21,420 nucleotides of DNA from a virus. The stretch spans positions 1 to 21,420 of the IMG/VR virus record IMGVR_UViG_3300017967_004806; one strand, given 5' to 3'. The position numbers and the translations under genes were made by a program. Each line of letters opens with the position of its first letter. The first letter of the stretch is position 1. This document shows, in pieces, positions 3,832 to 21,420 of the stretch. The notes beneath the pieces are model-generated. The model was given only the letters and a program-made list of their open reading frames with translations, was not told the origin of the DNA and searched no databases.

Positions 3832-3838
3832 TAGGAAC

Positions 3839-3846
3839 GATAAATA
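3839..3846 (+). promoter_or_regulatory. T4-type late promoter
   Basis: The sequence GATAAATA matches the T4 late promoter consensus TATAAATA at seven of eight positions. It lies in the only noncoding gap between the two large fibre genes, with 18 bases between it and the ATG at 3865. The same CGATAAATAT string stands on the other strand ahead of the minus-strand operon at 21058-21051, which makes chance less likely. Confidence 0.65.
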
Positions 3847-3864
3847 TAAGAAACAAAGGGTATT

Positions 3865-5331: not shown

Positions 5332-5347
5332 GAAGGAATAGAATACA

Positions 5348-7411: not shown

Positions 7412-8225
7412 AGGATTTGTATTATTTGTACAGCAAAACAACGACTCTGATTATTTAAAACAGGCAGTGGCGTGTAGTTTGAGTATTAAAAAATTTATGC
7501 CCGATGAAAAAGTGTGTTTGATCACAGATATCACTGTGCCTGCTGATTATCAAAAGCACTTTGACTATATCAAGGATATACCAGGAGATGATTTAGCACA
7601 AAACAGCGATTGGAAAGTTGCGAATAGATGTAAAATTTATGATATCACACCATTCAACGAAACCATTGTGTTAGATGTAGATATGTTGGTATTGGAAAAT
7701 ATCGATCATTGGTGGAAACAATTAAGCAATTATGAATTGTATTACACCAACAAGGTAAAAACTTATAGAGGAGAATGGGCAACCAGCAATTACTATAGAA
7801 GAGTTTTTGTTGAAAATTCTTTACCAAACGTGTATTGTGGATTTCATTATTTTAAAAAATGTAAAAACAACAACAAGTTTTTTGAGTTACTCAAAGACAT
7901 TGTTGTAAATTATGAAGTGTACAGCAAACGTTTTACAAAATATAAAACTCAAACTTGGTGCAGTATGGATGTTGCCACAGCCATAGCAATTGATTTGTTG
8001 AATTTACAACACAAGGTTTTCAGTGATTACTCGAACTTAACATTCACACACATGAAACCCAGAATCCAAAATTATCAAAGCCAAATGAACAATTGGACAC
8101 AGCATATTGATTATAATTTGAACACAAAAAATGAATTGTTTGTGGGCAACGTAAAACAAAAAGGAATATTTCATTATGTGGAAGATAATTTTTTAACTGA
8201 ACAAATGCTGGAGCAATTACAATGA
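7404..8225 (+). CDS. GT-A-like glycosyltransferase, copy 2 of tandem pair
   Basis: A 273-residue paralogue of the preceding protein, overlapping it by 8 bases. Shared landmarks are the N-terminal MSRGFVLFVQQNN strand with DYLKQA, the DVD motif at 91-93 within ETIVLDVDMLVLEN, YFKK in the middle, and CSMDVATAIAID aligning with the Asp-containing segment of its neighbour. Divergence is strong outside these blocks, so the two enzymes probably differ in donor or acceptor. No strong ribosome site precedes this ATG, suggesting translation coupled to the upstream gene. The DxD and fold call follow known GT-A families; the biological substrate is not inferable. Confidence 0.66.
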   Translation: MSRGFVLFVQQNNDSDYLKQAVACSLSIKKFMPDEKVCLITDITVPADYQKHFDYIKDIPGDDLAQNSDWKVANRCKIYDITPFNETIVLDVDMLVLENIDHWWKQLSNYELYYTNKVKTYRGEWATSNYYRRVFVENSLPNVYCGFHYFKKCKNNNKFFELLKDIVVNYEVYSKRFTKYKTQTWCSMDVATAIAIDLLNLQHKVFSDYSNLTFTHMKPRIQNYQSQMNNWTQHIDYNLNTKNELFVGNVKQKGIFHYVEDNFLTEQMLEQLQ

Positions 8226-8815
8226 CCATAAGACCGCCGTTAAAATTTGATGTGATTCGCCCTGAAGTGAAATACTATTTTCGTTTTGATCCTGCGTCAG
8301 GCAGGGTATTAGGTTTTTCTGTACAGCAAAAAGGACACAGCATTGAAATATCGGAAGAACTTGCCAAACAAGTTCAAAGCAAACTGAAACAATTGGGTGA
8401 TTACTTGGTTGTTCTTGAAAACAATCAGTATGTGGTTAAGGCAAAAAATGCGGTGCTTAACAAACAGCACAACAGCACAGAATCAAACAAACATATAAAC
8501 GAAATCATTTACGAAGTACAAAAAAATAAAAAAGATTCTTGTATTAGATTTAATCTTGATCAAACACACAACAACTGGACAATCACCATTGACGATGAAC
8601 TAAAAAACACAATTAAAAATACAACCAATCAACAAAGTGTGCTAAATTTTTTTACAACTCCTCAAGACAATACCAGTGTGCTTGATTATGCTTTTGATGT
8701 AGATTTAACAAAACTTTGCGAAGATGGCAAATTACAAATTCCTCATCAATCAAAATCGACACCAAGGTTGTTTTGTAGAAAAGTGTACAACTATTCATAT
8801 GAGGTAAACAAATGA
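8222..8815 (+). CDS. Phage protein of unknown function
   Basis: A 197-residue protein I do not recognise. The ATG overlaps the previous stop by four bases (ATGA), and GGAG lies eight bases upstream. Residues 12-70 (VKYYFRFDPASGRVLGFSV, then YLVVLENNQYVV) suggest a small beta-rich domain. A polar Lys/Asn-rich linker follows at about 75-100. The C-terminal half, with NNWTITIDDEL and VLDYAFDVDLTKL, suggests a second beta-rich domain. No catalytic motif, Cys cluster, signal peptide or membrane segment is visible. It is locked between two pairs of glycosyltransferase-like genes and is translationally coupled to both sides, so a role alongside them, for example as a scaffold or acceptor, is possible but purely contextual. 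Confidence 0.55.
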   Translation: MTIRPPLKFDVIRPEVKYYFRFDPASGRVLGFSVQQKGHSIEISEELAKQVQSKLKQLGDYLVVLENNQYVVKAKNAVLNKQHNSTESNKHINEIIYEVQKNKKDSCIRFNLDQTHNNWTITIDDELKNTIKNTTNQQSVLNFFTTPQDNTSVLDYAFDVDLTKLCEDGKLQIPHQSKSTPRLFCRKVYNYSYEVNK

Positions 8816-9729
8816 TACTTAAAATAGCAGATATGGATTTTGTGTTTTTGAGCGTGGATGAACCTAATGCTGAAAAGAATTATGCTGATCTGAAAAGGAA
8901 AATACCTTGGGCGAAACGAGTACATGGAGTCTTAGGTTTTGATACTGCTCATAAACGTGCGGCAGAAATATCCGATACAGAAAGATTTATCACAGTGGAT
9001 GCTGATACACAGGTACATGAAGATTTTTTAAATGTGTTGGTGGATATGAAATCTTTAGGTGTAGACAACACATATCAATTCAGTTGGTGTGGACACATTG
9101 AATTAAATGGATTAAAATATGGCAATGGCAGTTTAAAATGTTGGACAAAAGACTTTGTAAAAAATATGCAGACGCATGAAAATCACGATGGAGCAGAAGG
9201 CAGTCAAAATAGAAATGTTATTGAATTTTGTCACTTTCCTAATTATTATCAGTTTAATGAAAATTATTCAAACAGTTACATAGATGGGTCTGCTTATCAA
9301 GCCTGGAGAGCAGGATTCAGAGAAGGTGTAAAAATGAGTTTGGATAGAAACATTAGAAAGCCTCTTAATGAATTGTGGTGGCAAAATTATCAAAGACTGC
9401 TGGTATGGATGTCAGTGGGCATGGACAATCAATATGGAGTTCATGCTATTCATGGAGCAAGAACAGGCTGTTATTTGACAACTTGTACTGATTGGGATTT
9501 TACTCAAGCAAACAATTATAGGTATTTTCAAAATTATTGGAAATGGGAACTACATGATAATGATGACAAGACAGAAACTGATTTTTATCAACAAGTGATA
9601 GAATTAGGAGAAAAAATAAATGATCAGCACAACATAGAATTACCTATAGAACCTTTGAACGCAGAACAAAGTAAATTTTTTAAAAAAGTGTATTACAATA
9701 CACCAAGGATAATAAGGAAAACAATTTGA
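8812..9729 (+). CDS. Glycosyltransferase-like protein, second family, copy 1
   Basis: A 305-residue protein with a nucleotide-sugar-transferase-like N-terminus: MDFVFLSVDEP, then AKRVHGVLGFDTAHKRAA, then RFITVDADTQV with DAD at 63-65. The remainder is rich in Trp, Tyr and Asn, including YGNGSLKCW, AWRAGFREGVKMS and MDNQYGVHAIHGARTG blocks. These blocks recur in the next gene, so the two form a tandem family distinct from the pair at 6599-8225. The ATG overlaps the previous stop by four bases after GAGGT; an internal ATG at 8833 would align better with the paralogue's start and remains possible. The VDAD motif and preceding fold suggest GT-A, but no acceptor or donor is evident. It could also be a non-catalytic relative. 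Confidence 0.6.
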   Translation: MILKIADMDFVFLSVDEPNAEKNYADLKRKIPWAKRVHGVLGFDTAHKRAAEISDTERFITVDADTQVHEDFLNVLVDMKSLGVDNTYQFSWCGHIELNGLKYGNGSLKCWTKDFVKNMQTHENHDGAEGSQNRNVIEFCHFPNYYQFNENYSNSYIDGSAYQAWRAGFREGVKMSLDRNIRKPLNELWWQNYQRLLVWMSVGMDNQYGVHAIHGARTGCYLTTCTDWDFTQANNYRYFQNYWKWELHDNDDKTETDFYQQVIELGEKINDQHNIELPIEPLNAEQSKFFKKVYYNTPRIIRKTI

Positions 9730-10418
9730 TGTATGATATAGTTTTTATAAGTTACAACGAACCGTTGGCAGATCATAATTATAAAATGTTGTGTGAACGC
9801 TTTCCAATAGCACAAAGAATACATGGTGTAAAAGGAATTCACCAGGCACATATAGAAGCGGCAAAATTAGCACTCACAAAAATGTTTTGGGTAGTAGATG
9901 CTGATGCTGAGATAGTGGATGATTTTAAATTTGATCACAAAGCCACAGGTTATAAACAAACATGGGTTCATGTTTGGCGTAGTCGTAACCCTATCAATGA
10001 TTTACAGTATGGTTATGGTGGAGTAAAACTTTTACCTAGAGAATTAACTTTAAAAATGGACACAAACACAACAGATATGTCCACCAGTATATCCGAAGGT
10101 TTTCAGCCAATGGAACAGGTATCAAACATCACAGCATTCAACTCTGATCCTTTCAGTGCTTGGAAATCAGCATTCAGAGAGTGTGCCAAGTTAAGTTCCA
10201 AAGTGATAGATAGACAGGAAGATTCGGAAACAGAACAAAGATTAAACATTTGGTGTACCAAAGGCATGGATAGACCTTATGGTGACTTTGCTGTTGATGG
10301 TGCTCAAAAAGGCAGACAGTTTGGCGAACAGAACAAAGACAAAATAAAAATGATCAACGATTTTGATTGGTTGAAAACACAATTTGAGGAGACTTGCGGT
10401 GTCAGTGAATACTACTAA
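9729..10418 (+). CDS. Glycosyltransferase-like protein, second family, copy 2
   Basis: A 229-residue paralogue of the previous gene, shorter by about 75 residues. It shares MYDIVFISYNEP, the AQRIHGVKGIHQAH block, and WVVDADAEI with DAD at 57-59. It also has YGYGGVKLLP, AWKSAFRECAKLS and a MDRPYGDFAVDGAQKGR block matching the neighbour. I chose ATG 9729 (TGATG overlap with the previous stop) with AAGGA at 9714-9718; the TTG three bases earlier is less likely. The pair appears to be a duplication that diverged, like the pair upstream. The DxD motif suggests metal-dependent sugar-nucleotide chemistry. Substrate unknown. Confidence 0.6.
   Translation: MYDIVFISYNEPLADHNYKMLCERFPIAQRIHGVKGIHQAHIEAAKLALTKMFWVVDADAEIVDDFKFDHKATGYKQTWVHVWRSRNPINDLQYGYGGVKLLPRELTLKMDTNTTDMSTSISEGFQPMEQVSNITAFNSDPFSAWKSAFRECAKLSSKVIDRQEDSETEQRLNIWCTKGMDRPYGDFAVDGAQKGRQFGEQNKDKIKMINDFDWLKTQFEETCGVSEYY
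10387..10391 (+). promoter_or_regulatory. Ribosome binding site fixing the GTG start at 10399
   Basis: AGGAG lies inside the last codons of the upstream gene, seven bases before GTG 10399. It overlaps the codons just after an in-frame TTG at 10384, so that TTG cannot use it and is unlikely to be the start. Confidence 0.7.
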
Positions 10419-11487
10419 GATTCCATTTGATAACATTGTGCGATTCGGACAAAGCACCATGTTAGAGAAAAATTTGTTCAATGTGAGTTGGATACTCAGC
10501 AGATTCTGTAATTACAACTGTTCTTATTGTTGGCCCTATGCTCACAGCAAAAAGGTTGATCACAGACCATTGGAAGTTTACAAAAAGACCATGGACGAAA
10601 TAAAAACGCAAGCCAGAGCAAATGGATTCAACAGTTTTCATTTCAGTTTCTCAGGAGGTGAGCCTACAGCATACAAAAGATTTTTGCCATTGATAGGACA
10701 CTATGCCAAAGACGAGAAAGCCAGATATCAAAGCATACACATGACAACCAACTGTTCTCCAGGTAAGAAATGGTGGGCAACATGGATACAAGCCACTGAA
10801 ACTTTAAAGCGAAGAAGTATTACAGCCAGTTTCCATCACGAATTTGCCGATGAAGATGCGTTTGGAGACAAACTGTTAATGCTACAAGATGCAGGCGTGT
10901 ATGTCACAATCAACCAAGTGATGGTGCCACATCTATTTGAAGAACTGTATGAGAGATGTTCAAGATTCAATCAGAGAGGAATCAATGTAACATTAAAACC
11001 ACAAAGCAACGAATCTGCTAGTGAAATTGTGTCTGGCTACACAGATGATCAGATTGAAATGATGAAAACAGGATTTCCACTCACAATTGAAAACGGAGAA
11101 TTAGTTCAACAGTTGGTTTTGAATGATCACAAGGATAATATGTACAATTTGGATCAAGCAGAAAGATTCAATGCGTTTGGTTTTAACAAATTCAAAGGCT
11201 GGACTTGTAATGCTGGATATCAAAGTTGCATTGTGAGAGAGCCAGGTGGAGAAATCAAAAGAGCATACAGTTGTCATGATGAACCATTAGGAACCATTGA
11301 TGAAGGATTTAAATTATTTAGAACTCCAAACAGATGTATTACTTCAACCTGTGTGAGTTCAGCAGACAGCAAAATTCCAAAAAGTAGAGAATTGGATAAA
11401 CTGGAAGCCATTGAAAAAGAAGAAATCATAATGGAAATCAGTCGTAAGCAATCCAAAGCATTCAAAAAGGAACGAACAAATGTATAA
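10399..11487 (+). CDS. Radical SAM protein with C-terminal SPASM-type domain
   Basis: A 362-residue enzyme that should bind a [4Fe-4S] cluster and S-adenosylmethionine to start radical chemistry. The cluster motif CxxxCxxC is C37, C41, C44 in FCNYNCSYC. The SAM-contacting GGEP motif is at 86-89 (SGGEPT). A SPASM-like auxiliary-cluster region follows: C270 and C277 in WTCNAGYQSC, C292, C313 and C318. The C-terminal 40 residues are charged and helical. The GTG start is fixed by AGGAG at 10387-10391 and overlaps the upstream gene by 20 bases. The pattern W-x-CN-x-G..S...(I) recurs in the proteins at 16351 and 17237, so these three form one subfamily. SPASM enzymes commonly modify peptides or proteins, some sugars or cofactors; the substrate here is unknown. 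Confidence 0.85.
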   Translation: MSVNTTKIPFDNIVRFGQSTMLEKNLFNVSWILSRFCNYNCSYCWPYAHSKKVDHRPLEVYKKTMDEIKTQARANGFNSFHFSFSGGEPTAYKRFLPLIGHYAKDEKARYQSIHMTTNCSPGKKWWATWIQATETLKRRSITASFHHEFADEDAFGDKLLMLQDAGVYVTINQVMVPHLFEELYERCSRFNQRGINVTLKPQSNESASEIVSGYTDDQIEMMKTGFPLTIENGELVQQLVLNDHKDNMYNLDQAERFNAFGFNKFKGWTCNAGYQSCIVREPGGEIKRAYSCHDEPLGTIDEGFKLFRTPNRCITSTCVSSADSKIPKSRELDKLEAIEKEEIIMEISRKQSKAFKKERTNV

Positions 11488-12466
11488 ACTCACCGACATA
11501 AAAGATGTTCATTTGGAAGTGACCAGCAAGTGTCAAGCCAAATGTCCAATGTGTCCAAGACGTATTCAAGGTGGTCCTCTAAATCCTTTTATACATCTTG
11601 ATGAAATAACTTTGGATAGATTCAAGCAATGGTTTCCTGTGGAGTTTATCAAACAATTGAACAGTATGTTCATGTGTGGCAATCTAGGAGATCCTATTGT
11701 AAGCAAGGATACTTTAGAGATATACAAGTATCTGCGTGAAACTAATCCTCATATAAGACTTTCAATGCACACCAATGGCAGTGCTAGAGATACAGAGTGG
11801 TGGAAACAGTTAGCACAAACTCAAGTAAAAGTTACTTTTGGAATAGATGGTTTGGCAGACACAAATCATCTGTACAGAATATCCACAGACTTTGATAAGA
11901 TCATTGCCAATGCCAAAGCATTTATACAAGCAGGTGGATTTGCCAAGTGGCATATGCTAGTGTTCAAGCACAACGAACATCAAGTGGAAACAGCAGAACA
12001 GATGTCAAAAGATTTAGGATTTAAAATTTTTACAACCAAACACACATCACGATTCAAGAAAGATTATTTACAAGTGATAGATGAAAAAGGAAATCCTTTA
12101 CACAAACTGGAACCCACACAGAAAAGTGCTGACATGATTCCTTTGATTGAACAGTCACAGCAAGAAACAACACCCACTATTGTGTGTAAAGCAGTTAAAA
12201 ACAAACAATTATATGTGAGTGCCTGTGGTAATGTATCTCCTTGTTGTTGGTTGGACATGGAATGGATTCCACCCATGCAGGACAGCAGGATAGATTATAT
12301 GGAAAGAATAGGCGAGTTTCCGAATTTAAATACAAGTAGTTTACAAGAAATATTCGATGGAGGATATTTTGACAAAATAGAACAAACTTGGGGTCACACA
12401 CCACTACAAGAATGTGGCAAACAGTGTGGATCATTTGATAAACTGGGAGTTCAATTTGAAAATTAA
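11480..12466 (+). CDS. Radical SAM protein of a GN-GDP-type subfamily with Cys-rich C-terminus
   Basis: A 328-residue radical SAM enzyme, coupled by an 8-base overlap to the one before it; AAGGA precedes the ATG. The cluster motif is C18, C22, C25 in KCQAKCPMC. In place of the usual GGEP it has CGNLGDP at 66-72, a variant seen in one branch of SPASM-type proteins. The HTNGS segment at 97-101 matches the following SAM-binding strand. The C-terminal half carries C236, C249, C255, C256, C312 and C316 with VSPCCWLD, fitting an auxiliary cluster domain. It is clearly not a duplicate of its neighbour. The two may act in succession or as partners; this is inferred from coupling only. Confidence 0.82.
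   Translation: MYKLTDIKDVHLEVTSKCQAKCPMCPRRIQGGPLNPFIHLDEITLDRFKQWFPVEFIKQLNSMFMCGNLGDPIVSKDTLEIYKYLRETNPHIRLSMHTNGSARDTEWWKQLAQTQVKVTFGIDGLADTNHLYRISTDFDKIIANAKAFIQAGGFAKWHMLVFKHNEHQVETAEQMSKDLGFKIFTTKHTSRFKKDYLQVIDEKGNPLHKLEPTQKSADMIPLIEQSQQETTPTIVCKAVKNKQLYVSACGNVSPCCWLDMEWIPPMQDSRIDYMERIGEFPNLNTSSLQEIFDGGYFDKIEQTWGHTPLQECGKQCGSFDKLGVQFEN
12445..12449 (+). promoter_or_regulatory. Ribosome binding site supporting the TTG start at 12456
   Basis: GGGAG stands six bases before TTG 12456, inside the end of the upstream radical SAM gene. The open frame extends further left to GTG 12414, but those codons simply overlap conserved C-terminal coding sequence of the neighbour and lack a comparable site. 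Confidence 0.6.
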
Positions 12467-13073
12467 TATTAAAGATGTGCTGTATTGGATGGATGCCATC
12501 AGACAATCGGATGATAGGTATCGCACATTGGAAAGTTTCTGGAAAGGACAAATCAACAGCAAAGTTTGGCTGATTGACACACTTAAACAATATTTCCAAA
12601 GAGTACCATACAACATTGTGATATGCGGTGGCTGGAATGGAGTGCTGGCAACACTGCTGTTCAACAGCGATCTGGACATCTTAAAAATTACTTCTGTGGA
12701 TAAAGATCCTGCTTGTGAGCCTATTGCTCTCACAATGAACAAAGAGTATGAAATGCGAGGACAATTCACTGCTTTAACTGAAAATATAATTGATTACAAA
12801 TATTACAACAAGCACAATTTGATAATAAACACTGCCTGCGAACACATGACACCGGAGGAATATAATCAATGGATTTCAAAATTGCCCAACAACACTCAGG
12901 TGATACTACAAAGCAATGATTATTTTGACAATGAGGAACACGTGAATTGTCAAAAAGATTTGATCACGTTCAAACAAAATTGTGGCTTGCAAGTTTTTTC
13001 TGCTTCAGAATTAGAAACAGAAAAATACAAAAGATTTATGATAATAGGAGTTAAAAATGGATACAGCAACTAA
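12456..13073 (+). CDS. SAM-dependent methyltransferase-like protein
   Basis: A 205-residue protein of class I methyltransferase type. Residues 52-65 contain YNIVICGGWNGVLA, fitting the glycine-rich motif I that binds S-adenosylmethionine. SVDKDPAC at 80-87 supplies the acidic residues after the second strand, and LIINTACEHM at 122-131 fits motif IV. A helical N-terminus (VLYWMDAIRQSDDRYRTLE) precedes the core. The TTG start is chosen because of the GGGAG site; it overlaps the upstream gene by 11 bases. The first 14 codons of the longer frame, from GTG 12414, are excluded. The substrate is not evident. Placement between a radical SAM enzyme and an oxygenase suggests one step of a shared modification route. 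Not all motif-I-like proteins are catalytic, so activity is inferred. Confidence 0.68.
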   Translation: MKINIKDVLYWMDAIRQSDDRYRTLESFWKGQINSKVWLIDTLKQYFQRVPYNIVICGGWNGVLATLLFNSDLDILKITSVDKDPACEPIALTMNKEYEMRGQFTALTENIIDYKYYNKHNLIINTACEHMTPEEYNQWISKLPNNTQVILQSNDYFDNEEHVNCQKDLITFKQNCGLQVFSASELETEKYKRFMIIGVKNGYSN

Positions 13074-13716
13074 AGTTTTTAACAAATTTAAAGATGGCAC
13101 ACTGCCTTGGTTGGAATTAGATATGAGTTTTACTCCTTACACTGACCACGTGGAGTTTGCCAAATTGGAACAATACTATGTACCACACAGAGAAAAAGAA
13201 ACTCACAAAGGTTGGAGCAGTTGTTGTCTGCATGGTTTGGGCATTGACAAAACACAGGTGGCAAAAGAATATGGCTACGATGATGAATTGAACGCACCTT
13301 ATGACTGGACAGAATTATCACAAATTGCACCTGCGGCAAAAATGTTTTGGGACAAGTTTCCTGCTGAAAGATACAGCAGAATACGTTTTATGAAACTTGA
13401 TCCTGCTGGCAGAATAGATTGGCACAATGACCATCCAGGACATCAACTGCCAGAGGATTTGTGCGAGTACTTGATTCCAATAAATGTGTCGGTGATACAT
13501 CCAGCACTGTGTTACATGGATATAAAAGATCATGGATTAGTTCCATTTGGACATGGCAAAGTTTTTTTAATAAACATACTGAAAGATCATCAAGTGGTCA
13601 ATAACGCCAATGTGGAAAGAATACACATGATTGCTCAAGCACACATAGGCAACCGTAGATCAGAGTTTAATGAATTATTAGATAGGAGTTTGGAGAAAAA
13701 TGGCATTTCAATTTAA
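13057..13716 (+). CDS. Aspartyl/asparaginyl-hydroxylase-like 2-oxoglutarate/Fe(II) oxygenase
   Basis: A 219-residue protein of the double-stranded beta-helix oxygenase class. The metal-binding HxD is H123 and D125 in DWHNDHPG. The distal His is probably H178 in KDHQVVNNANVERIH, and R188 is in the position that usually binds 2-oxoglutarate. Preceding RIRFMKLDPAGRI and following EYLIPINVSV match the strand pattern of the Asp/Arg hydroxylase family (PF05118). AGGAG lies six bases before the ATG, which overlaps the upstream gene by 17 bases. Family members hydroxylate amino-acid side chains in proteins or free amino acids, or small molecules. A second member starts at 21102. The call to the oxygenase class is firm; protein hydroxylation is an inference. 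Confidence 0.8.
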   Translation: MDTATKVFNKFKDGTLPWLELDMSFTPYTDHVEFAKLEQYYVPHREKETHKGWSSCCLHGLGIDKTQVAKEYGYDDELNAPYDWTELSQIAPAAKMFWDKFPAERYSRIRFMKLDPAGRIDWHNDHPGHQLPEDLCEYLIPINVSVIHPALCYMDIKDHGLVPFGHGKVFLINILKDHQVVNNANVERIHMIAQAHIGNRRSEFNELLDRSLEKNGISI

Positions 13717-15103
13717 CGCACAGAATAGAAAGCATGACAACATAGTTTTTGTTTTGGATACAAATTTTCACAAAATAAAAAATGCTTCAGCGAAAGAAAT
13801 AATTCAAAACATTGCTGAATATCAGATAGGTAAAATCAACACCATGGGTTATGATGTTATGATAGCCCTGTCGGCAGATCCCACATTAACAAAATTGGTT
13901 GACCAATATGATTATGCTGTGGTATATAATCCAGATACTGAATTCCAAGGTGGTGCTTTTTTCAAACATTTACACAAACTGATTGAACAGGATTTTTATA
14001 TAGCAGGACACATACTAGACAGAAAAGAAGGATACTATGAACTGCATGAACAATGCTATGTTATCAATCTTAAAAAACACAAAGAACTGGAATTGCCTGA
14101 AATAGGTGAAATGAAAAAGGATTCAGAACACTTTACCACAGAACCTATTAGAAGTGAAGAAAATTTTCACGATGATTATACTCCTTTATGGATTAAGCCT
14201 GGAAATGAACTCAAAAAATATGCTCACAAATGGCATGGTTGGAATGTAATAAGAACAGCATTGGACAACAAAGAAAATATCATTGTGTTTGATGAAGATA
14301 TTAGATTGAGTAAAAAATGTTATTATGCCAAACACGAAACAGATTTTATTGAAAACAGCAAACAGATTTACAAAAAGTACAATCAAAGTGCAAATAGATT
14401 GTTCTATCCCATAAACACAGAAGAACTGCAGACAGTCCATGTAGCAGGCAATGTTAAACAATTGATTACTCCTGCCAGTGGTTTTAATTGGTTAAAGTAT
14501 CTGGACAAATATGGTTGGGACGAGGATACAGAAGTGATATTTTATGATTACAATCCAAATGCACTTTACTACATGGAACAAACAATTAAAAAATTCTCTG
14601 GGGGAGATTATCATCAATTTTTAAAAGACACTAATAGACACAAATCACCAGACTGGTTACCTACAAAATTAGAAATTGCTGACCATTTTGCAGAAATTAG
14701 CAATTTATGGCATATCAAAGACAAAATAAAATTTAAATTTGTGGAATGTGATTTATTGAATGAATTTACATTAAAATTTCAAAATGAACAAAATGTAATT
14801 TTCAACATCAGTAACATTTTTGCCTATGAGCCAACAGTGCCATTTATTCCAACCAAGCAAAGAGTGATTCAACAAAATCAACTTATAAAACTGTTAAAAG
14901 AAAAATATGACAAAATACAATTGATTGTATCGCAACATGCCTGGAGTGGATTTGTAGAATACGATGTAGATGCTGGTCCTGTTGAAAAATTTTATGAAGT
15001 AGATATTGAAAGTTTGAAAGCACCCATGTGGCGATTTGGAAAAGAATGGAAAGCACCATTAACTCCTGAGGAGGAATATGAACAAGAACAAGATGAAGAA
15101 TAG
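13700..15103 (+). CDS. Large two-domain protein: GT-A-like N-terminus, methyltransferase-like C-terminus
   Basis: A 467-residue protein, overlapping its upstream neighbour by 17 bases; GGAG lies just before the ATG. Residues 13-135 look like a nucleotide-sugar-transferase fold: IVFVLDTN, then DYAVVYNPDTEF (77-82) with FKHLHKLI and YVINLKKH after it. About 155-210 contain a WHGWNVIRTAL and IIVFDEDIRLS block. The second half starts with LQTVHVAGNVKQLITPASG at 243-261, and VIFYDYNPNAL at 279-289 resembles methyltransferase motif I or the adjoining acidic loop. The C-terminus ends in a run of acidic residues. A fusion of sugar-transfer and methyl-transfer steps would suit the gene neighbourhood, but both domain calls rest on pattern only. 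It may instead be one unfamiliar domain set. Confidence 0.5.
   Translation: MAFQFNAQNRKHDNIVFVLDTNFHKIKNASAKEIIQNIAEYQIGKINTMGYDVMIALSADPTLTKLVDQYDYAVVYNPDTEFQGGAFFKHLHKLIEQDFYIAGHILDRKEGYYELHEQCYVINLKKHKELELPEIGEMKKDSEHFTTEPIRSEENFHDDYTPLWIKPGNELKKYAHKWHGWNVIRTALDNKENIIVFDEDIRLSKKCYYAKHETDFIENSKQIYKKYNQSANRLFYPINTEELQTVHVAGNVKQLITPASGFNWLKYLDKYGWDEDTEVIFYDYNPNALYYMEQTIKKFSGGDYHQFLKDTNRHKSPDWLPTKLEIADHFAEISNLWHIKDKIKFKFVECDLLNEFTLKFQNEQNVIFNISNIFAYEPTVPFIPTKQRVIQQNQLIKLLKEKYDKIQLIVSQHAWSGFVEYDVDAGPVEKFYEVDIESLKAPMWRFGKEWKAPLTPEEEYEQEQDEE
15069..15074 (+). promoter_or_regulatory. Strong ribosome binding site for the twitch-first radical SAM gene
   Basis: AGGAGG, a full consensus site, lies in the Glu-rich tail codons of the upstream gene, only three bases before ATG 15078. 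A second in-frame ATG at 15093 lies 18 bases beyond, so the first ATG is favoured despite the short spacing. Confidence 0.6.
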
Positions 15104-16358
15104 TTGTACTTTCTGTATGCACCCTTTTACAGGGTTAGCCACAAGAGAAGATGGCGCAATTAAAGTGTGCTGTCGTAGTCTTCCTATTGGAAACATTAAA
15201 GACATGAGTTTGGAAGAAGCATGGAACTCTGACAAAATGAAAGAAGTAAGACGACAAGTGTTAAACGATGAACGTCCAGACGTGTGTGCGCCTTGTTTTC
15301 ATTTGGAAGATCAAGGAGTGCAGAGTTTAAGACAAAGACATATCACAGATTCTTCACCAGAATCTAGAATCAATTTATATCCAGATGCCTTGGATAAACT
15401 GATGGATGATTATTCAATGCCGTTTGATTTGCCCACAATTGAAATTAAGATAAACAATCTTTGTAATTTGAAATGTAGAATGTGTAATCCTTTGGACTCC
15501 ACACAATGGAAAGACTGGAATGCCATAGTGGATCATTACAAAAAAGAAGGCAACTATCTTGTGGATGCTGTGGAAAGTTTAGGATTAACCAAAGCACCGT
15601 ATGTGGGAATATTTGAAGACAAAGATCATTTTTGGGACAACTTGGAAAAATTATTACCGCATTTTAGACGTGTTGAATTTGCAGGCGGTGAGCCTTTAAT
15701 GGATCCTGTACATTATAAAATATTAGACTTACTATCTAAGAATGGAAAAAACATTGAAATAAAATACGCTACCAACGGTACAACACTGGGAATCAAGGGC
15801 GGTAGAACTGTGCATGACTATTGGCCCAAGTTTAAAAGTGTGGCAGTCAATGTGTCAATAGATGGACTTCACGATGTGTATGAATACATCAGAGGCAATG
15901 GCAAGTTTTCAGATATAGAATACAACATCAAAGAAATGAAAAAGATACCCACTGTGAGTAGAATAGTAGGAGCATTTACTGTACAAGCCAACAACATATT
16001 ACAAATAGACAAAGTGATAGACTATTTCTTGCGTGAGATGAAGATTGTGTTTTACAGTCACAGGGTTAACTATCCAAGAGCACTATCGGCACAGGTATTG
16101 CCCAAAGAATTAAAAGATCAGGTAATTGCTAGACTGGAAGCAATGAAACCTAAAATTAAAGATTATGAAATAGTCAAAGAACATCCTGTGCTTGAAAAAA
16201 TTACTCAACAACAGATACAAGACAACATAAACTTTTTACAATCCACAGACTTAAATCAATACTGGCAAGACTGTATTGACTTTAATAGAAGACTTGATCT
16301 TACACGAAACCAAGGACCGTTTGAAAAGATAAATCCGGAGTTTCAACAGTATGTTTAA
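15078..16358 (+). CDS. Twitch-first radical SAM protein
   Basis: A 426-residue radical SAM enzyme with the auxiliary cluster domain at the N-terminus rather than the end. C10, C13, C31, C32, C70 and C73, around the pattern G-N-I-K-D-M-S-L-E-E-A-W, form a twitch/SPASM-like region. The catalytic cluster motif is C129, C133, C136 in LCNLKCRMC, and AGGEP is at 202-206. This order matches the family annotated as twitch domain-containing radical SAM proteins, which is common in marine phages and bacteria and mostly uncharacterised. The start overlaps the preceding gene by 26 bases. It is coupled to the SPASM-last gene downstream. A related, longer protein with the same order is coded on the opposite strand at 18199. 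Enzyme class firm; reaction unknown. Confidence 0.86.
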   Translation: MNKNKMKNSCTFCMHPFTGLATREDGAIKVCCRSLPIGNIKDMSLEEAWNSDKMKEVRRQVLNDERPDVCAPCFHLEDQGVQSLRQRHITDSSPESRINLYPDALDKLMDDYSMPFDLPTIEIKINNLCNLKCRMCNPLDSTQWKDWNAIVDHYKKEGNYLVDAVESLGLTKAPYVGIFEDKDHFWDNLEKLLPHFRRVEFAGGEPLMDPVHYKILDLLSKNGKNIEIKYATNGTTLGIKGGRTVHDYWPKFKSVAVNVSIDGLHDVYEYIRGNGKFSDIEYNIKEMKKIPTVSRIVGAFTVQANNILQIDKVIDYFLREMKIVFYSHRVNYPRALSAQVLPKELKDQVIARLEAMKPKIKDYEIVKEHPVLEKITQQQIQDNINFLQSTDLNQYWQDCIDFNRRLDLTRNQGPFEKINPEFQQYV

Positions 16359-17247
16359 AGTAGAACACTTATACCAGCATATTAGAAACAGCGTCAAAGT
16401 GGAATGGAACCTTGGCAAAAGATGTAACTATGATTGTTCATATTGCCCAGCAGTTATACACGACAATACAAGTCCGCACACAGACATAGAAATATTGAAA
16501 CGTGCTGTGGATCAATTGGCTCAAATAAAAAATGTAAGAATCAGTTTTACAGGCGGTGAGCCTTGTGTTCATCCAAAAATTTTGGAACTGCTAGAGTACG
16601 CAAAACCAAAAGTTTCTTGGCTTAATGTCACCACAAATGGAACTAGAACATCAGAATTTTACACAGACATTTTGGACAGATTGATCAACCATATTGTGTT
16701 CTCTATACACTTTGAATATGACTACCAAAAGGTGATAGAAACCGTTTTAAACGTCTCACAGCACACAAAAAATAAAAATATACTAGCACACGTAATGATG
16801 CTTCCAGGACGCTTAGATGACGTCTCTGACGCTTGTAAGCACCTAAAAGAAGCCGATATTAAGTATGCTCTAAGACCAATTCGCTGGACTGAAACACACG
16901 ATATTTTTGAGGATATGGAGCGTTATTCTGCAGAAGAAAAAGAGTTTTTGGTAACTCAAAATCACACACCGCCTCACAACACAATCATTGATGAGACTGA
17001 ATCCTGTAACACCAACGACTTGTTGATTGAGAAAACAAATCAATTCAAAGACTGGAAATGTAATGCTGGATTAGAAAGTTTAATGATTAATTGGGATGGT
17101 GAAGTTCACAGAGCCACTTGTAGAGTGGGCGGACCTATTGGTAACATTTATGAAGGCACTTTTGTTCAACCCAAAGAAGCAATTGCCTGCACACGACAAT
17201 GGTGCACTTGTGCCGCAGATATCAATATAACAAAAATTAAAGTTTAA
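16351..17247 (+). CDS. Radical SAM protein with C-terminal SPASM-type domain
   Basis: A 298-residue enzyme, last of the plus-strand chain and coupled to the twitch-first gene by an 8-base overlap; GGAG is at 16337-16340. The catalytic motif is C25, C29, C32 in RCNYDCSYC, with TGGEP at 67-71 and TTNGT at 94-98. Auxiliary cysteines are C237 (WKCNAG), C257, C280, C285 and C287, ending CTRQWCTC. Similar spacing occurs in the minus-strand protein at 17237 and, less fully, at 10399. Its last 11 bases overlap the end of that minus-strand gene, leaving no room for a transcription terminator. The partner relation with the twitch-first protein is inferred from coupling and from its mirror repetition on the other strand. 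Confidence 0.85.
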   Translation: MFKVEHLYQHIRNSVKVEWNLGKRCNYDCSYCPAVIHDNTSPHTDIEILKRAVDQLAQIKNVRISFTGGEPCVHPKILELLEYAKPKVSWLNVTTNGTRTSEFYTDILDRLINHIVFSIHFEYDYQKVIETVLNVSQHTKNKNILAHVMMLPGRLDDVSDACKHLKEADIKYALRPIRWTETHDIFEDMERYSAEEKEFLVTQNHTPPHNTIIDETESCNTNDLLIEKTNQFKDWKCNAGLESLMINWDGEVHRATCRVGGPIGNIYEGTFVQPKEAIACTRQWCTCAADINITKIKV

Positions 17248-18202
17248 ATTTATCCAACAAACTTTCGGGCTGACACATACAGGTGTTGCGTTTGTCACAG
17301 ATCTTAGGTTTAATATCAGGATTGAATTTATTCACAAAATCCTTATCGTATATGTTGTAGTTTTCAAACAGTCTTGTTCTACAAGCACCTGTTATAATTC
17401 CAGCAGGATCAATCATCATGCTGTCCACACCAATGTTACACATCCAACCACGGAAATCATTCTGTTTGTTCAACACCAACCAATTACGATTTACCTTTTT
17501 CTTAGAACCATCTTCAAATTTAATTGTGGGCTCACCTTTTAGATGCTTTCTGTTTTTCCATAAGTGCCATATGCTGGGTCTTCTTTTTGTGGGTTTGGCA
17601 ACGTATGCTCTCTGCTCGTCTGTGTAGTTTATGGTTCTGTGCATCACTTCCATGGCACTGATAAACCATGAATGTTTGCTCTGTTTGAATTGATCAATCA
17701 ATCCCAAACAGGTATCCCAAGCAGTGGGATCCATCAACACCATCACATTGGGACTTCTGCCTATTTCGTGCAGTGTGTCTGCCACTTCAATAAAATGAGG
17801 TACATCAATCTGCTTCCAGTGAGCACTCAACAGTATTTTGTCAAACACTTCACCAAACTTGCGCCACCAACGCACAGTTCTACTGCCGTTGGAACTTATG
17901 GTGATGTATGAAGGTATGGCTTTTCTTATTTCTGTAACAAACTCTCCCAACTTGGGCCACAGTGTGGGTTCGCCCCCAACTATGTGTAACTCCAGTTTCT
18001 TTTTGCCTATCTTCTTGTACTGTTCAAACAGATGTTTAAAATTTAACACCAATTGGTCCATGTCATCAGTCCAACGATGTGTGCCTTCATGTGATCCTTC
18101 AAAACAATACCAGCAAGAGAAATTGCAGGTGTTACCTATCATGAATTCTATACGCAACACATCTTTGGGTTGAGGATTATAAACTTGTACTACCTGTTTC
18201 AT
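17237..18202 (-). CDS. Radical SAM protein with C-terminal SPASM-type domain
   Basis: A 321-residue enzyme, last of the minus-strand operon, coupled to the upstream twitch-first gene by ATGA overlap. The catalytic motif is C26, C30, C33 in TCNFSCWYC, followed by VGGEPT at 75-80 and SSNGSRT at 103-109. Auxiliary cysteines are C255 in WMCNIG, C274, C302, C308 and C310. The final pattern C-x5-C-x-C is close to the C-x4-C-x-C of its convergent counterpart at 16351, and both end in short Lys-rich tails. A basic segment around 204-245 (KPTKRRPS, then KKKVNRN) is not found in the counterpart and could contact a nucleic acid or acidic partner, though this is speculative. Function otherwise unknown. 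Confidence 0.85.
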   Translation of the reverse strand: MKQVVQVYNPQPKDVLRIEFMIGNTCNFSCWYCFEGSHEGTHRWTDDMDQLVLNFKHLFEQYKKIGKKKLELHIVGGEPTLWPKLGEFVTEIRKAIPSYITISSNGSRTVRWWRKFGEVFDKILLSAHWKQIDVPHFIEVADTLHEIGRSPNVMVLMDPTAWDTCLGLIDQFKQSKHSWFISAMEVMHRTINYTDEQRAYVAKPTKRRPSIWHLWKNRKHLKGEPTIKFEDGSKKKVNRNWLVLNKQNDFRGWMCNIGVDSMMIDPAGIITGACRTRLFENYNIYDKDFVNKFNPDIKPKICDKRNTCMCQPESLLDKFKL

Positions 18203-19617
18203 AACAAATGGGCCAATTCAGGAAACACTGTTTTGGCATCTACTCCTCGTATAGCATCTAATTTTGTGACATACTCTTTGAATCCAGGCAACAAGAATGA
18301 ATGATCATTTTCATTCATGTGTTTCAACACAGCCTCCCAACGTCTCCATCCATAAGGATTTGTTTTCCAATAATCATCATCCTGCCTGTAGTTTTGCCAC
18401 AGCCAATCTTTGAATTCCATAAATCTTTCTTCAACTTCTTGCTTGTCTTCTTTGGGCAGTATTTGTATGCTTAAGAACGTTGGTATGTACAGCAAGTGCA
18501 TATTAACAAGTCCGCCACCCATCTGCACTCCGCCAGGCACTGTGCCTGCGTTTAATTTTTTGAATCCGCTTTGTACTTTCCATTTCATAAAGTCTGGCAA
18601 GTGTTTCACATTGAATATCTGTATGGCAGTTGCTAGACTGGTTTGTATGTTGTCTGGTGTGTTGTCCAGCATATGTAAATTCTTTTCCACAGTGTCCCAG
18701 TTGGTAGGAAAACGTATGTACTCATCACGTTTGCCCATGGCATCCATGCTCACAGCAAACTTAACTTTTTTAAATTTGCTCCACAGTTCAATTAAATCTT
18801 CATCAACCAATATGCCGTTTGAATTGTAACGCAACAGTATCTTGTCTTGATAACCTTGACGTATGATCTCTTCTATAAATTGTTTGTGTTCTTTGATCAT
18901 TAGTGGTTCCCCTCCAGCAAAATAAACCTGCTTCAAGTTAGGAATCTGTCTGTACATCTCTTCCCAGAACTCAGGCTTTTCATGCCAGAAGTTGTTGAAT
19001 TCTTTTTTGTCCCATTGCAGTTGTTGTTTGACATCCTTGTTCTGTAACTGTGGCATCAACTGTTGCCAGTCCTTAACCCATTTGGAACTGTCGTGTGGAG
19101 AACACATCACACATTTGATATTACAAGTGTGTCCCAGTCTTAAATCCAAGTACATCAACTGTTCAGGCACTGTGCCATCTTCTTTGGTTTGACGTATCAG
19201 TTCAGGAATATCAACTCCATCTTTGTACCATGTGCCAGTTTCCCATATGCGTTTAGAAACAACACCAACTTTTTCTTCTTTGAAACACTTGCGACAACTG
19301 GCAGGTATTTTATTGTTCAACATAGTGGTACGCACACTCTTCATGTAGTCGTTGTTCCATGCTTCCATGGGAGTATCCTTGCCAAAGTTAGCAGGTTTAC
19401 CATCCTCTTTTTTGACGAGGCCCACTTCGTGGTCGGAACCAGCGCCGCTGGCGTTTGCTGAACAGCACAATCTCATATCACCATTGGGTCTTGTGGCAAA
19501 ATGTATCCAAGGCAATATACAAAATGTAGAACTGCCTGAAACAGATTCTAATTCTCTTTGCCATTTACCCAGTTCTGTGTCTTCTGGATTCTGCCAATAT
19601 TCGTTGTGATCAGTCAT
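18199..19617 (-). CDS. Twitch-first radical SAM protein, longer version
   Basis: A 472-residue enzyme related to the one at 15078 and also carrying its auxiliary cluster domain first: C33, C51, C52, C108 and C111. The catalytic motif is C165, C169, C172 in TCNIKCVMC, and AGGEP is at 234-238. Between the CC pair and the conserved EAW the spacing is about 18 residues longer than in the 15078 protein, and this insert (SANASGAGSDHE and following) is coded by a locally GC-rich patch. AGGAT lies about seven bases upstream of the ATG, which overlaps the SGNH gene stop by 8 bases. Long Trp-rich helical stretches (VKDWQQL, WHEKPEFWEEMY) separate the motifs. It probably works with the SPASM protein next to it; substrate unknown. 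Confidence 0.86.
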   Translation of the reverse strand: MTDHNEYWQNPEDTELGKWQRELESVSGSSTFCILPWIHFATRPNGDMRLCCSANASGAGSDHEVGLVKKEDGKPANFGKDTPMEAWNNDYMKSVRTTMLNNKIPASCRKCFKEEKVGVVSKRIWETGTWYKDGVDIPELIRQTKEDGTVPEQLMYLDLRLGHTCNIKCVMCSPHDSSKWVKDWQQLMPQLQNKDVKQQLQWDKKEFNNFWHEKPEFWEEMYRQIPNLKQVYFAGGEPLMIKEHKQFIEEIIRQGYQDKILLRYNSNGILVDEDLIELWSKFKKVKFAVSMDAMGKRDEYIRFPTNWDTVEKNLHMLDNTPDNIQTSLATAIQIFNVKHLPDFMKWKVQSGFKKLNAGTVPGGVQMGGGLVNMHLLYIPTFLSIQILPKEDKQEVEERFMEFKDWLWQNYRQDDDYWKTNPYGWRRWEAVLKHMNENDHSFLLPGFKEYVTKLDAIRGVDAKTVFPELAHLL

Positions 19618-20227
19618 TTAATATCCTATAAATTTTATCTGCTAAAATTTTATTGCTTTCTACACCAGGGTGTAGTTTATCTTCTGCTTTGTCCACATAT
19701 TCTAAACCATCACTATGATAATTGTTAATATTGATAAAATCAAGTGAGTGTTTGTCCAATTCCTGTGGTGTTGCTGGGTAATGAATGTATTTTACATCTT
19801 TTTGTTGTAGATGTAAATCAGCATGATGTATGTGGAACCAACTTTTCATAGCATAATCTTTTTCACTCAAATATTCTGCCCACAATCTTTCTTTGTGTGT
19901 TTTTGCCCAAGGGCCTAATCTATCTCTAAAGAAAGGATATTTGTGAACAGAATTAAACAGCATGTCTCTCACGTAATGAGTCCACATAATAACAACTGTG
20001 TCGTCTTTGTGATAATTGTATTTCAACACATTGTACATGATTTCTGTGTTGCTGGATCCTGGAAACGATTCATTAACTAATTCTAAATCAAGTTTATCTG
20101 CCAACAGTGATGCCCAACCCATCTTGCTTGGTTTTAAATTGTGTAATTTGTCAAACATCCAGTTCTTACAGTCAGGTAAACCTGTTCCATAGGTGTATGA
20201 ACAACCAAATGTGATTAATCTTGACAT
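19610..20227 (-). CDS. SGNH/GDSL-type hydrolase or acyl-ester transferase
   Basis: A 205-residue protein of the SGNH fold. Block I is ITFGCSYTYG with nucleophile S10; block II is probably FPGSSN at 55-60; the catalytic pair is D183 and H186 in DKLHPG. The oxyanion Asn of block III is not in its textbook form: the expected GxND region reads MWTHYVRD. There is no signal peptide, so it should act in the cytoplasm or be packaged. The ATG at 20227 directly precedes the first strand and is backed by a G-run eight bases upstream; the frame extends to 20275 but those codons only overlap the neighbour's conserved end. Family members remove or move acyl groups on sugars, lipids or peptides. The operon context suggests trimming or decorating the product of the radical SAM enzymes. 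Confidence 0.75.
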   Translation of the reverse strand: MSRLITFGCSYTYGTGLPDCKNWMFDKLHNLKPSKMGWASLLADKLDLELVNESFPGSSNTEIMYNVLKYNYHKDDTVVIMWTHYVRDMLFNSVHKYPFFRDRLGPWAKTHKERLWAEYLSEKDYAMKSWFHIHHADLHLQQKDVKYIHYPATPQELDKHSLDFININNYHSDGLEYVDKAEDKLHPGVESNKILADKIYRILND

Positions 20228-21036
20228 TTGCTGATCCCCCATTCTCTTTCTTGACACCAAAAACACTTGCCACACACTGGCACAGGCGACTTTGGATCAT
20301 ATGTCTTGTAATCCAAATCTCCAAAGATTTCTGGATATGTGTTCTTGTCTCCTTCACAACTGCGTGTAAGATTGAATAGGTCCATAATGCCTAATTTTTT
20401 ATATTGGGCAACTATCCAATCTTTTTGTACATATGCGAATGGGTGACAAGCAAAGCCGCCCATGTGTGCTTTGATTAATTTGTCCAGTGTAGCATCAGAG
20501 AGATCATCTAAGACTAAATCTCTTTCCACTAGACGTTCATCAAACTGTTTGTCTGGATTCTTGGTCACACCACAATACCAAGCATCCAATTTTTCTGTGT
20601 GAGCCACGTATTCTGCGTGTGCCCTTAATTCTATTTGATTACCACTTTTTAATTTGCCATATTCATCTGTAATATTTGGACCTACAGATCCCCATTCTAG
20701 TTCTGGAGCAATAAAGTTGGTGTGTCTTTTAAATTGTATTGTAGGAAATGCTGATGTCAGCCAATTGTAGACATCTAAACTGTTTTGTTGTTGCCAAGGT
20801 CTGGTCTTCCAACATCTCACATTGGTGATAATGTGTATTTTGGTATCCACTTGTAGTTGCGATATGATACTGCACAACAGCACACTCATCAAGGCACTGT
20901 CTGCTCCACCACTCACACTGATACCAATATTTTTCCATTTGTCAGAAAATGGAAAAACTACTCCATCTATCTCGTGGAGAATATTCCTATAGATACTAGA
21001 CTGGTAAATTGATTTTATTGTTTCGTAATTAGACAT
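20215..21036 (-). CDS. QueC-like PP-loop ATPase (adenylating enzyme)
   Basis: A 273-residue protein, first of the minus-strand operon. SGGADSA at 42-48 is the PP-loop that binds ATP in N-type pyrophosphatases, which activate a carboxyl or carbonyl by adenylation. A C-terminal zinc-type cluster, C227 with C255, C258 and C261 (SCEGD, then CGKCFWCQER), is the pattern of QueC, the 7-cyano-7-deazaguanine synthase. The length is greater than that of typical QueC (about 220-235 residues), and the region between the two motifs is not typical. No QueD, QueE, QueF or base-exchange gene is visible here, so a deazaguanine role cannot be concluded. QueC relatives also occur in defence (QatC) and in peptide-modifying systems. 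A T4-type late promoter lies just upstream. ATP-dependent activation of a substrate of this operon is a fair inference. Confidence 0.75.
   Translation of the reverse strand: MSNYETIKSIYQSSIYRNILHEIDGVVFPFSDKWKNIGISVSGGADSALMSVLLCSIISQLQVDTKIHIITNVRCWKTRPWQQQNSLDVYNWLTSAFPTIQFKRHTNFIAPELEWGSVGPNITDEYGKLKSGNQIELRAHAEYVAHTEKLDAWYCGVTKNPDKQFDERLVERDLVLDDLSDATLDKLIKAHMGGFACHPFAYVQKDWIVAQYKKLGIMDLFNLTRSCEGDKNTYPEIFGDLDYKTYDPKSPVPVCGKCFWCQEREWGISKCQD
20234..20240 (-). promoter_or_regulatory. Ribosome binding site for the SGNH gene
   Basis: On the minus strand GGGGGAT stands with its G-run eight bases before ATG 20227, inside the end of the PP-loop gene. It favours that ATG over the earlier in-frame ATG at 20242, which this site overlaps. 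Confidence 0.55.
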
Positions 21037-21050
21037 ATTATGGACAAAGA

Positions 21051-21058
21051 TATTTATC
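21051..21058 (-). promoter_or_regulatory. T4-type late promoter for the minus-strand operon
   Basis: Read on the minus strand, GATAAATA runs from 21058 down to 21051, with 14 bases between it and the ATG at 21036. Its CGATAAATAT context is the same as that at 3838-3847. It lies in the 65-base divergent gap. Confidence 0.65.
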
Positions 21059-21101: not shown

Positions 21102-21420
21102 ATGTTAGAAAAATTAGATACCAAAACTGATTCCAAAAAGTTATATCAATTGTTAAAGCATTTACCAGAAGGTAAGAATGTGTTGAACAACCCCACAGGA
21201 GATTTTTTCTATGATCCTTGGGAGGTACTACCAGAATACAAAGACACTGTGTTGGATGAACTGTTGCAACAGTTACCAGATCATGGAGAAGCCAGACTGA
21301 TTGTGATGAAGCCAGGTGAAAGTTATTCTGCTCATGCTGATATAGACGACAGATATCATGTGACACTGGATGCTGAACACAGTTATCTACATGACATAGA
21401 AAATGAAGTGATGTTTCCAA
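21102..21420 (+). CDS. Second Asp/Asn-hydroxylase-like oxygenase (3' end missing)
   Basis: Open from ATG 21102 to the end of the window, 106 complete codons. The N-terminal part (LYQLLKHLPEG, then FFYDPWEVLPEY) is helical and polar. Residues 64-87 read ARLIVMKPGESYSAHAD followed by IDDRYHV: H78 and D80 form the HxD iron-binding motif, with R84-Y85-H86 in the place that is conserved in Asp/Asn and Asp/Arg hydroxylases (PF05118). The distal His and the 2-oxoglutarate Arg should lie past the window edge. It is divergent from the PP-loop gene. It shares the HxD and flanking strand pattern with the 13057 protein but is not a close copy. A role in the same pathway is inferred from proximity only. 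Confidence 0.68.
   Translation, partial: MLEKLDTKTDSKKLYQLLKHLPEGKNVLNNPTGDFFYDPWEVLPEYKDTVLDELLQQLPDHGEARLIVMKPGESYSAHADIDDRYHVTLDAEHSYLHDIENEVMFP

Follow-up and report, generated by a model that had tools for sequence, protein, structure and literature searches.

A radical SAM gene island beside the tail-fibre genes of a T4-like phage and its co-retained eight-gene core

Six radical SAM genes in a phage fragment

The window analysed here, the whole 21,420-base IMG/VR virus record IMGVR_UViG_3300017967_004806, is a fragment of a T4-like phage in which six radical S-adenosylmethionine (SAM) genes, designated A to F, lie within 9.2 kb (Table 1). It is assigned to a phage because tail-fibre and virion-structural families sit at its left end and because a T4-type portal is encoded by G003, a relative of 100 kb whose other structural genes are named by eye. 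All six proteins pass the PF04055 cut-off of 29.5 bits (39.3 to 52.5 bits), and the record contains exactly six such matches, with E values of 2.5e-12 to 8.5e-16, so the finding is not due to chance. An earlier note on this DNA had described six distinct radical SAM enzymes, five with a GGEP motif and one with GN-GDP. Their number and positions are confirmed, and B reads GNLGDP instead of the GGEP found in the other five. A tree built from 104 representatives gives A, B, C, D and E a starred clade each and shows F as one tip, all F sequences falling in one 75%-identity cluster; the separate clades indicate that the six genes are not recent copies of one another. Additional radical SAM families, among them D2, D3 and N1, occur in relatives.

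C and F belong to NF033640, the NCBIfam family of twitch domain-containing radical SAM proteins (cut-off 170 bits), whose name states no function. A, B and E, at 37, 49 and 36 bits, are not members, and NF033640 is not among the 25 families listed for D, the best of which scores 58 bits. A SPASM domain exceeds the Pfam cut-off in B, C and F; A, D and E have no Pfam SPASM match, yet each has four to five conserved C-terminal cysteines. Family profiles make A, D and E weakly viperin/MoaA-like and D and E QueE-like, and the solved structures found with a D profile include viperin-like enzymes, MoaA and QueE; the corresponding PDB profile search with F gave nothing meaningful. Assignment to the viperin family was rejected, as the best NF038283 scores are 58 bits for D, 46 for E and 43 for A against a cut-off of 180, and so was assignment to QueE, since TIGR03365 and TIGR03963 appear for D and E with scores far under the cut-off.

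The extra cysteine domains that the earlier note ascribed to all six proteins are borne out in relatives, as are the cluster cysteines, whose variation among homologues it had named as a point against a shared pathway. We aligned 42 to 51 distinct sequences per family, including the window and leaving out short fragments. The CxxxCxxC cysteines are invariant in every alignment except for one column of E (44 of 45), and each family has four to five extra cysteines with no or almost no exceptions. In A, the cluster cysteines and the C-terminal Cys270/292/313/318, seven in all, are present in 42 of 42 sequences. B keeps Cys18/22/25/66/255/256/312/316 in 48 of 48 and Cys236 in 40 of 48, and C keeps Cys13/31/32/70/73/129/133/136 in 42 of 42 and Cys10 in 39 of 42. 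In D, the cluster cysteines and C-terminal Cys237/257/280/285/287 occur in 46 of 46 sequences; in E, the cluster cysteines and C-terminal Cys255/274/302/308/310 occur in 44 or 45 of 45; and in F, eight cysteines are all found in 51 of 51 or, where there is one gap, 50 of 50. The CxxxCxxC motif is missing from 31 of the 660 radical SAM-like frames of the first loci. Ten of these frames were looked at, and nine appear truncated. The tenth, an E homologue (L098, 9995-10957), reads NFSSWYC and has lost one cluster cysteine, through either an assembly error or inactivation of that copy.

Table 1. Features of the window, in order of position
Feature	Position	Strand	Remarks
fib1, fib2, fib3, str4, tail-fibre / virion structural genes	2..6211	+	context
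GATAAATA, late-promoter-like, upstream of fib3	3839..3846	+	NATAAATA in 16/16 distinct fib3 upstreams
AATAAATA, late-promoter-like, upstream of str4	5319..5326	+	7/16 distinct str4 upstreams, 20-21 nt before aligned start
GT1 and GT2, GT8-like glycosyltransferase genes	6599..8225	+	beside island, not core
h8, between GT genes	8222..8815	+	fast-evolving; dN/dS 0.31
GT3 and GT4	8812..10418	+	related to each other, DxD-bearing; GT-like by eye
Radical SAM A	10399..11487	+	PF04055 50.5 bits; motif CNYNCSYC; own clade; core gene
Radical SAM B	11480..12466	+	PF04055 39.3 bits and C-terminal SPASM 24.9 bits, both above cut-off; core gene
MT, class I SAM-dependent methyltransferase fold	12459..13073	+	no Pfam match; core gene
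OX, Asp/Asn hydroxylase-like oxygenase	13057..13716	+	PF05118 22.2 bits, cut-off 22.6; accessory, 11/24 F-loci
M2, 467 aa	13700..15103	+	no Pfam match; PDB profile best E 0.29; accessory, 12/24 F-loci
Radical SAM C	15078..16358	+	NF033640 330 bits; SPASM and PF04055 above cut-off; N-terminal twitch/SPASM domain; core gene
Radical SAM D	16351..17247	+	PF04055 52.5 bits; core gene
Radical SAM E	17237..18202	-	PF04055 45.5 bits; frequent, not obligatory
Radical SAM F	18199..19617	-	NF033640 405 bits; N-terminal twitch/SPASM domain; core gene, most conserved protein
SGNH/GDSL-hydrolase-like	19610..20275	-	Pfam Lipase_GDSL_2 E 0.027, below cut-off; accessory, 10/24 F-loci
PPL, PP-loop ATPase, QueC-like	20215..21036	-	C-terminal CxxCFWC; core gene, 24/24 F-loci
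GATAAATA, late-promoter-like, upstream of PPL-SGNH-F-E operon	21051..21058	-	13-14 nt before PPL start
OX2, Asp-hydroxylase-like oxygenase	21102..21420	+	cut by window end; core gene, 23/24 F-loci

Co-retention of an eight-gene core

Scans for relatives confirmed 208 through F, at least 521 through A, at least 366 through C and at least 584 through fib3, the best 80 being kept in each case, and 19 through E. All 46 longer records chosen from the F and E scans, tested for PF04055 at E 0.001 and for NF033640, hold 5 to 13 PF04055 matches each and an NF033640 match above cut-off. Co-occurrence was tabulated over 86 loci, comprising 80 from the F scan, four from the E scan, one from GTDB and the window. 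Well-flanked loci number 24 for F (at least 6 kb on either side of F), 19 of 80 for A and 23 of 80 for C (at least 9 kb on either side, as in the A scan).

In the 24 F-loci, A, B, C, D, MT, PPL and the glycosyltransferase (GT)-like gene GT4 are always present and E and OX2 occur in 23; M2, OX and SGNH are found in 12, 11 and 10. The 19 A-loci have B and MT throughout, C in 17, D and F in 17 each (plus two weak matches apiece), PPL and GT4 in 16, and E and OX2 in 12. MT, D, F and OX2 accompany all 23 C-loci, with A and B in 22, PPL in 21, GT4 in 20 and E in 14 (a further six weakly). The window's arrangement is seen in 28 of the 86 loci, whereas F lies elsewhere in 54; two loci are unresolved and two lack F. 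Where the order is changed, F follows MT (26), B (20), PPL (7) or M2 (1). A gene set kept through rearrangement is better evidence of a shared task than synteny alone. The earlier note had proposed a test of whether all six radical SAM genes co-occur in one order; the set does mostly stay together, but its order is rearranged and E is not obligatory.

One locus, L183, holds a compact block, A-MT-B-F / D-C-PPL / OX2, with no GT or E hit; L192 has the same bare core, and L189 has it with E added. Because the core is kept in these three loci in the absence of a GT hit, it comprises eight genes, radical SAM A, B, C, D and F with MT, PPL and OX2, and the GT genes, SGNH, OX, M2 and E are additions to it. 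Co-retention shows this core, and as a genetic unit a multi-step pathway common to these genes has good support. The dedicated multi-step pathway of the earlier note thus survives in that form, with the surrounding GT genes, SGNH and OX no longer counted among its core members. Single copies of A, C or F at unrelated loci, which would have spoken against it, were not found among the well-flanked loci. Chance assembly of unrelated genes was dropped as an explanation in view of the co-retention in the F, A and C scans.

The ratio of nonsynonymous to synonymous substitution (dN/dS) was estimated against G003 for 18 genes, F and OX2 not among them, with synonymous sites near saturation in several. 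The core genes measured are under purifying selection, at 0.04-0.10 (A 0.10, B 0.06, C 0.04, D 0.06, MT 0.10 and PPL 0.09); E is at 0.10, and fib2 and fib3 are at 0.09 each. The fastest-evolving of the 18 is h8. In comparisons of G003 with two diverged records, F ranks first in identity both among the 35 frames shared with G035 (83%) and among the 29 shared with G027 (84%), portal and capsid genes being absent from the shared frames and hence from the ranking. A piece boundary truncates F in this comparison, so that 404 of the protein's 472 residues are covered, and the second-ranked frame in the G035 comparison is an antisense frame within F. In the same two comparisons fib3 is at 39% and 48% identity, and str4 is at 34% in G027. 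The first rank of F implies that its task must matter to the phage, and the much higher conservation of F and C than of the fibre genes suggests that the target is more likely a conserved one than the variable fibre tip.

The window has no close relative among 50,697 phage records. A megablast search with the window DNA found no match, nor did protein searches with A and GT4 or a search with MT, made as DNA only. As proteins, F found three records weakly, str4 gave one weak match, fib2 matched 52 records in part, and C matched 40 Vibrio phage records at identities of at most 25.7%. Several Vibrio phage records (e.g. H37-H39, H44) annotate distant twitch-type radical SAM homologues as 7-carboxy-7-deazaguanine synthase (queE), probably wrongly. 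An F profile scan of GTDB genomes, which relies on short exact peptide patterns that more distant cellular relatives could escape, returned three relatives. Two are Bacteroidota singletons at 29%, and the third (L121) has F at 76% with pieces of B, D and D2 on a 3.5-kb contig binned in a Thermoplasmata metagenome-assembled genome; because those pieces accompany F, L121 is probably a misbinned phage fragment. A host was not found; on the contig examined, the single-cell record AG-345-D19 has no more in common with the island than a weak F-like gene and one that is SGNH-like.

Partner genes, fibre genes and late-promoter-like motifs

The MT gene probably starts with the TTG at 12459, judging from alignment with relatives. 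Its AlphaFold2 model has a predicted local distance difference test score of 84.6, the Foldseek PDB matches listed are all class I methyltransferases, and comparison with NodS gives a VIA Z of 17.7; the fold thus supports a class I SAM-dependent methyltransferase, although a PDB profile search gave nothing meaningful. Nicotianamine synthase tops the Foldseek list, but other methyltransferases fit equally well, and we propose no aminopropyl transfer for MT. In PPL, the motifs SGGxDSA, RSCEG and CxxCFWC are invariant across 15 aligned rows. The window protein has no Pfam match and no meaningful match in a PDB profile search; PPL of one relative matches QueC (E 0.0078) and PP-loop (E 0.024) families, both below cut-off. 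A profile of OX2 relatives matches the beta-hydroxylase 7v4f (E 1.4e-14), and PF05118 falls below cut-off in two relatives. M2 looks, by eye only, like a GT-like half joined to a methyltransferase-like half. Of the neighbours named in the earlier note, the methyltransferase holds by its fold and the oxygenases resemble Asp/Asn hydroxylases, but the SGNH and QueC matches lie below cut-off.

These partners raise the idea of a modified nucleoside, in which a QueC-like ATPase and QueE-, MoaA- or viperin-like radical SAM enzymes would build a hypermodified base in DNA or tRNA. The below-cut-off resemblances of PPL, A, D and E point that way, a QueD/PTPS gene is found in 5 of 22 records and lies near the core in G055 and G056, and a conserved substrate would suit the identity rank of F. 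Every window protein falls short of the QueE and viperin cut-offs, however, PTPS was not found in the other 17 of the 22 records, all of them incomplete, and the usual place of the island is beside tail-fibre genes. We consider a nucleoside product improbable; viperin-like chemistry was dropped because the scores are below cut-off, and 7-deazaguanine DNA was dropped as a general role on the low QueE scores and the PTPS count. All large relative records searched for partner genes are incomplete genomes. Among them, an Fe-S A-type carrier occurs in 2 of 23 island records tested, where it (PF01521) lies ~9 kb from A in the related contigs L280 and L281 (G056 and G055). The bare core cassette of L183 (996-18558) is flanked by QueD/PTPS and epimerase-family genes and by genes that are KdsA- and ThyX-like by eye, in place of fib1-fib3.

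The combination of radical SAM/SPASM enzymes with a methyltransferase and an oxygenase also resembles natural-product clusters, and the island's product could be a small molecule or a peptide, diffusible or packaged, such as a ribosomally synthesized and post-translationally modified peptide. No precursor gene was found next to the core in the map of G025 (frames of at least 60 aa), where each gene in the run from OX2 to GT4 overlaps the next or is separated from it by no more than 21 nt, which leaves no room for an adjacent one; a distant precursor would still fit. Such a product seems to us quite improbable.

The earlier note had named four GT-like genes. A profile of GT1 and GT2 (16 rows) matches glycogenin weakly (E 2.8e-4), with no Pfam GT8 match in the 16 rows and PF01501 above cut-off in 0 of 22 records. 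For GT3 and GT4 there is almost nothing, as Pfam Glycos_transf_2 is matched in 1 of 17 aligned rows (E 0.073) and a PDB profile search gave no meaningful match. In two loci (L065, 4221-7394, and L069, 1587-4133) a long N-terminal array of degenerate ~100-aa repeats is fused to GT4, and by eye these repeats resemble the GT core itself.

The GT genes suggest another role, remodelling of the host envelope (lipopolysaccharide or another glycan), in which GT8-like enzymes would transfer sugars and the island's radical SAM, methyltransferase and oxygenase enzymes would tailor them, for instance as a means of shutting out competing phages. PMC7029224 reads the glycosyltransferases of pelagimyophages in this way. 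GT1 and GT2 are present in 44 of 44 fibre loci and GT4 in every well-flanked F-locus, G055/L183 has a gene of the sugar-epimerase family immediately after OX2, and the cultured Vibrio phage K566 has one GT8 gene between radical SAM genes and another beside one, both above the Pfam cut-off. Set against this are the cores without a GT hit in L183, L189 and L192 and the epimerase-family genes themselves, which exceed cut-off in 8 of 22 records and lie mostly far from the island. Moreover, tailoring of glycans is not known to be a usual role of Asp-hydroxylase-like or PP-loop enzymes. We regard envelope remodelling as unlikely, though not negligible.

Both fib2 and fib3 match PHROGs tail-fibre and virion-structural families, fib3 with a Peptidase_G2 domain, and fib1 and str4 are named by eye and position. 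Since fib3 is not an island enzyme, its scan approaches the island from outside. Among its best 80 loci, 44 have at least 9.5 kb downstream; all 44 contain str4, h5, GT1 and GT2 (weak matches counted), 43 have at least one radical SAM gene within 10 kb downstream, and 35 have at least two. Radical SAM matches fall in one stretch of the large records, at 72-90 kb of 100.6 kb in G003, 55-70 kb of 104.7 kb in G050, 120-145 kb of 169.5 kb in G061, 23-43 kb of 184.9 kb in G062 and 10.5-28.9 kb of 84 kb in G066; G048 and G049 have one weak match each outside the main stretch.

The motif NATAAATA, a late-promoter type of T4-like cyanophages, occurs within 60 nt before the aligned start of fib3 in 16 of 16 cases, of str4 in 7 of 16 and of PPL in 17 of 26, compared with 0 of 14 for fib2, 0 to 3 for other genes and a background of 0.003 per 60 nt. 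In a wider set it precedes fib3 in 17 of 17, str4 in 7 of 16, PPL in 20 of 55 and OX2 in 7 of 53, and it is found in 7.8% of mononucleotide-shuffled 120-mers. Variants resembling GGTAAATA and GATAAGTA were seen, by eye only, in other PPL upstreams. A scan for the late promoter with one mismatch gave 35 hits against 36.8 expected, at chance, so that of the promoter scans only the position-specific NATAAATA count stands out. The plus-strand genes after str4 are separated by few, short gaps. These motifs and the position after str4 suggest late co-expression with virion genes, and the island probably shares the late transcription of the adjoining fibre genes.

Possible role of the island

We infer that the biochemical role of the island is most likely polypeptide modification, followed by action on the host envelope, on nucleic acid and on a small molecule. 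The substrates of characterised twitch/SPASM radical SAM enzymes and of Asp hydroxylases are often peptides or proteins, which makes a polypeptide the likeliest substrate here. Our preferred reading, offered tentatively, is that of a late multi-step polypeptide modification carried out by a phage-specific island of T4-like phages, built on the eight-gene core and including the six radical SAM genes. Each radical SAM enzyme would cleave SAM at its CxxxCxxC cluster and abstract hydrogen from a common substrate, with its auxiliary cluster serving electron transfer or substrate binding. From family chemistry, MT would methylate, OX2 would hydroxylate and PPL would activate with ATP the same or a later intermediate. 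The substrate could be a protein of the phage made late in infection or one of the host that is conserved. It is also possible, if somewhat doubtful, that five or more radical SAM enzymes form a virus-specific assembly line, with F its invariant hub, that modifies a single conserved macromolecule, either a late phage protein or a host component, through a chemically new series of steps; and we would say the same of the idea that this line is diversified by added radical SAM and glycosyltransferase modules across a widespread uncultured T4-like lineage.

Several observations weigh against a late polypeptide-modifying island. The core of L183 lies 2.4 kb from a partial fib2-like frame and not beside fib1-fib3, and L166 and L193 have GT4, A, MT, B and weak D and F matches with no C, E or PPL. 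The shortfall of OX2 in the A-loci (12 of 19) is not explained in every case by its position beyond the flank in the window's order. Several contigs recur between scans and some are near-identical (e.g. L009/L010, L025-L027), which means that the loci do not count as independent. The model predicted for F was poor (predicted local distance difference test score 47) and was not used, and the strict T4 late promoter TATAAATA was not found in the window, where 1.3 were expected. Finally, A is matched strictly in 12 of the 44 fib3 loci, partly because the stretch covers 10 kb, and the loci without it have different radical SAM sets or none. With radical SAM genes downstream in 43 of the 44, this makes such genes a standing feature of the fibre locus and the A-F set one of several.

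Such variability, with N1, D2, D3 and other radical SAM families coming and going, would also be expected if there were no shared pathway and a hypervariable host-recognition region simply collected unrelated enzymes. The core set nevertheless persists in three scans despite rearrangement, and L183 keeps it as a bare block; we consider such a collection very unlikely.

Partial counterparts of the island are already known. The earlier note held that single radical SAM genes are known in phages, which understates the record. The T4-like genome TARA_ERS488813_N000010, described in PMC5332604, has 12 radical SAM genes and an Fe-S A-type carrier. It resembles the genomes considered here in its T4-like character and many radical SAM genes, and two of the 23 island records also encode such a carrier; the available part of PMC5332604 differs in giving a count and a suggestion of Fe-S metabolism, with no core set, gene order, co-retention or fibre link. 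In pelagimyophages, radical SAM cassettes occur with tail fibres and glycosyltransferases in a variable host recognition cluster that lies within the structural module (PMC7029224). In the part of that paper available, radical SAM is a passing remark, whereas here it is a conserved core; that cluster lies beside tail fibres between VrlC and gp14, and here radical SAM genes lie downstream of fib3 in 43 of 44 loci. In the portions available, PMC9301287 and PMC7150976 note ahbD-like or radical SAM annotations and no pathway. The Vibrio phage K566 (L120, OZ196521.1:161548-169287 and 177860-178915) has five twitch-type radical SAM-like genes, two above the NF033640 cut-off and four above that of PF04055, and its identity to the window is 23.6% for F and 25.1% for C. 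Four of the five genes are clustered with the two GT8 genes, the last of these on the opposite strand, and K566 could serve as a laboratory model. Multi-radical-SAM marine phages are thus already in print; no description of a conserved core was found in the open library searched.

Radical SAM enzymes catalyse reactions that are among the most demanding in biology, and they are sensitive to oxygen. Phages of this group nonetheless spend five to thirteen genes on them in 46 of 46 records, mostly in one island. A block of at least five radical-chemistry enzymes kept together in dozens of uncultured viruses of bacteria points to a shared modification during infection. Once its substrate is identified, a novel virion modification, a novel means of altering the host or a novel natural product would come to light, and the many "radical SAM" annotations in virus metagenomes would be accounted for.

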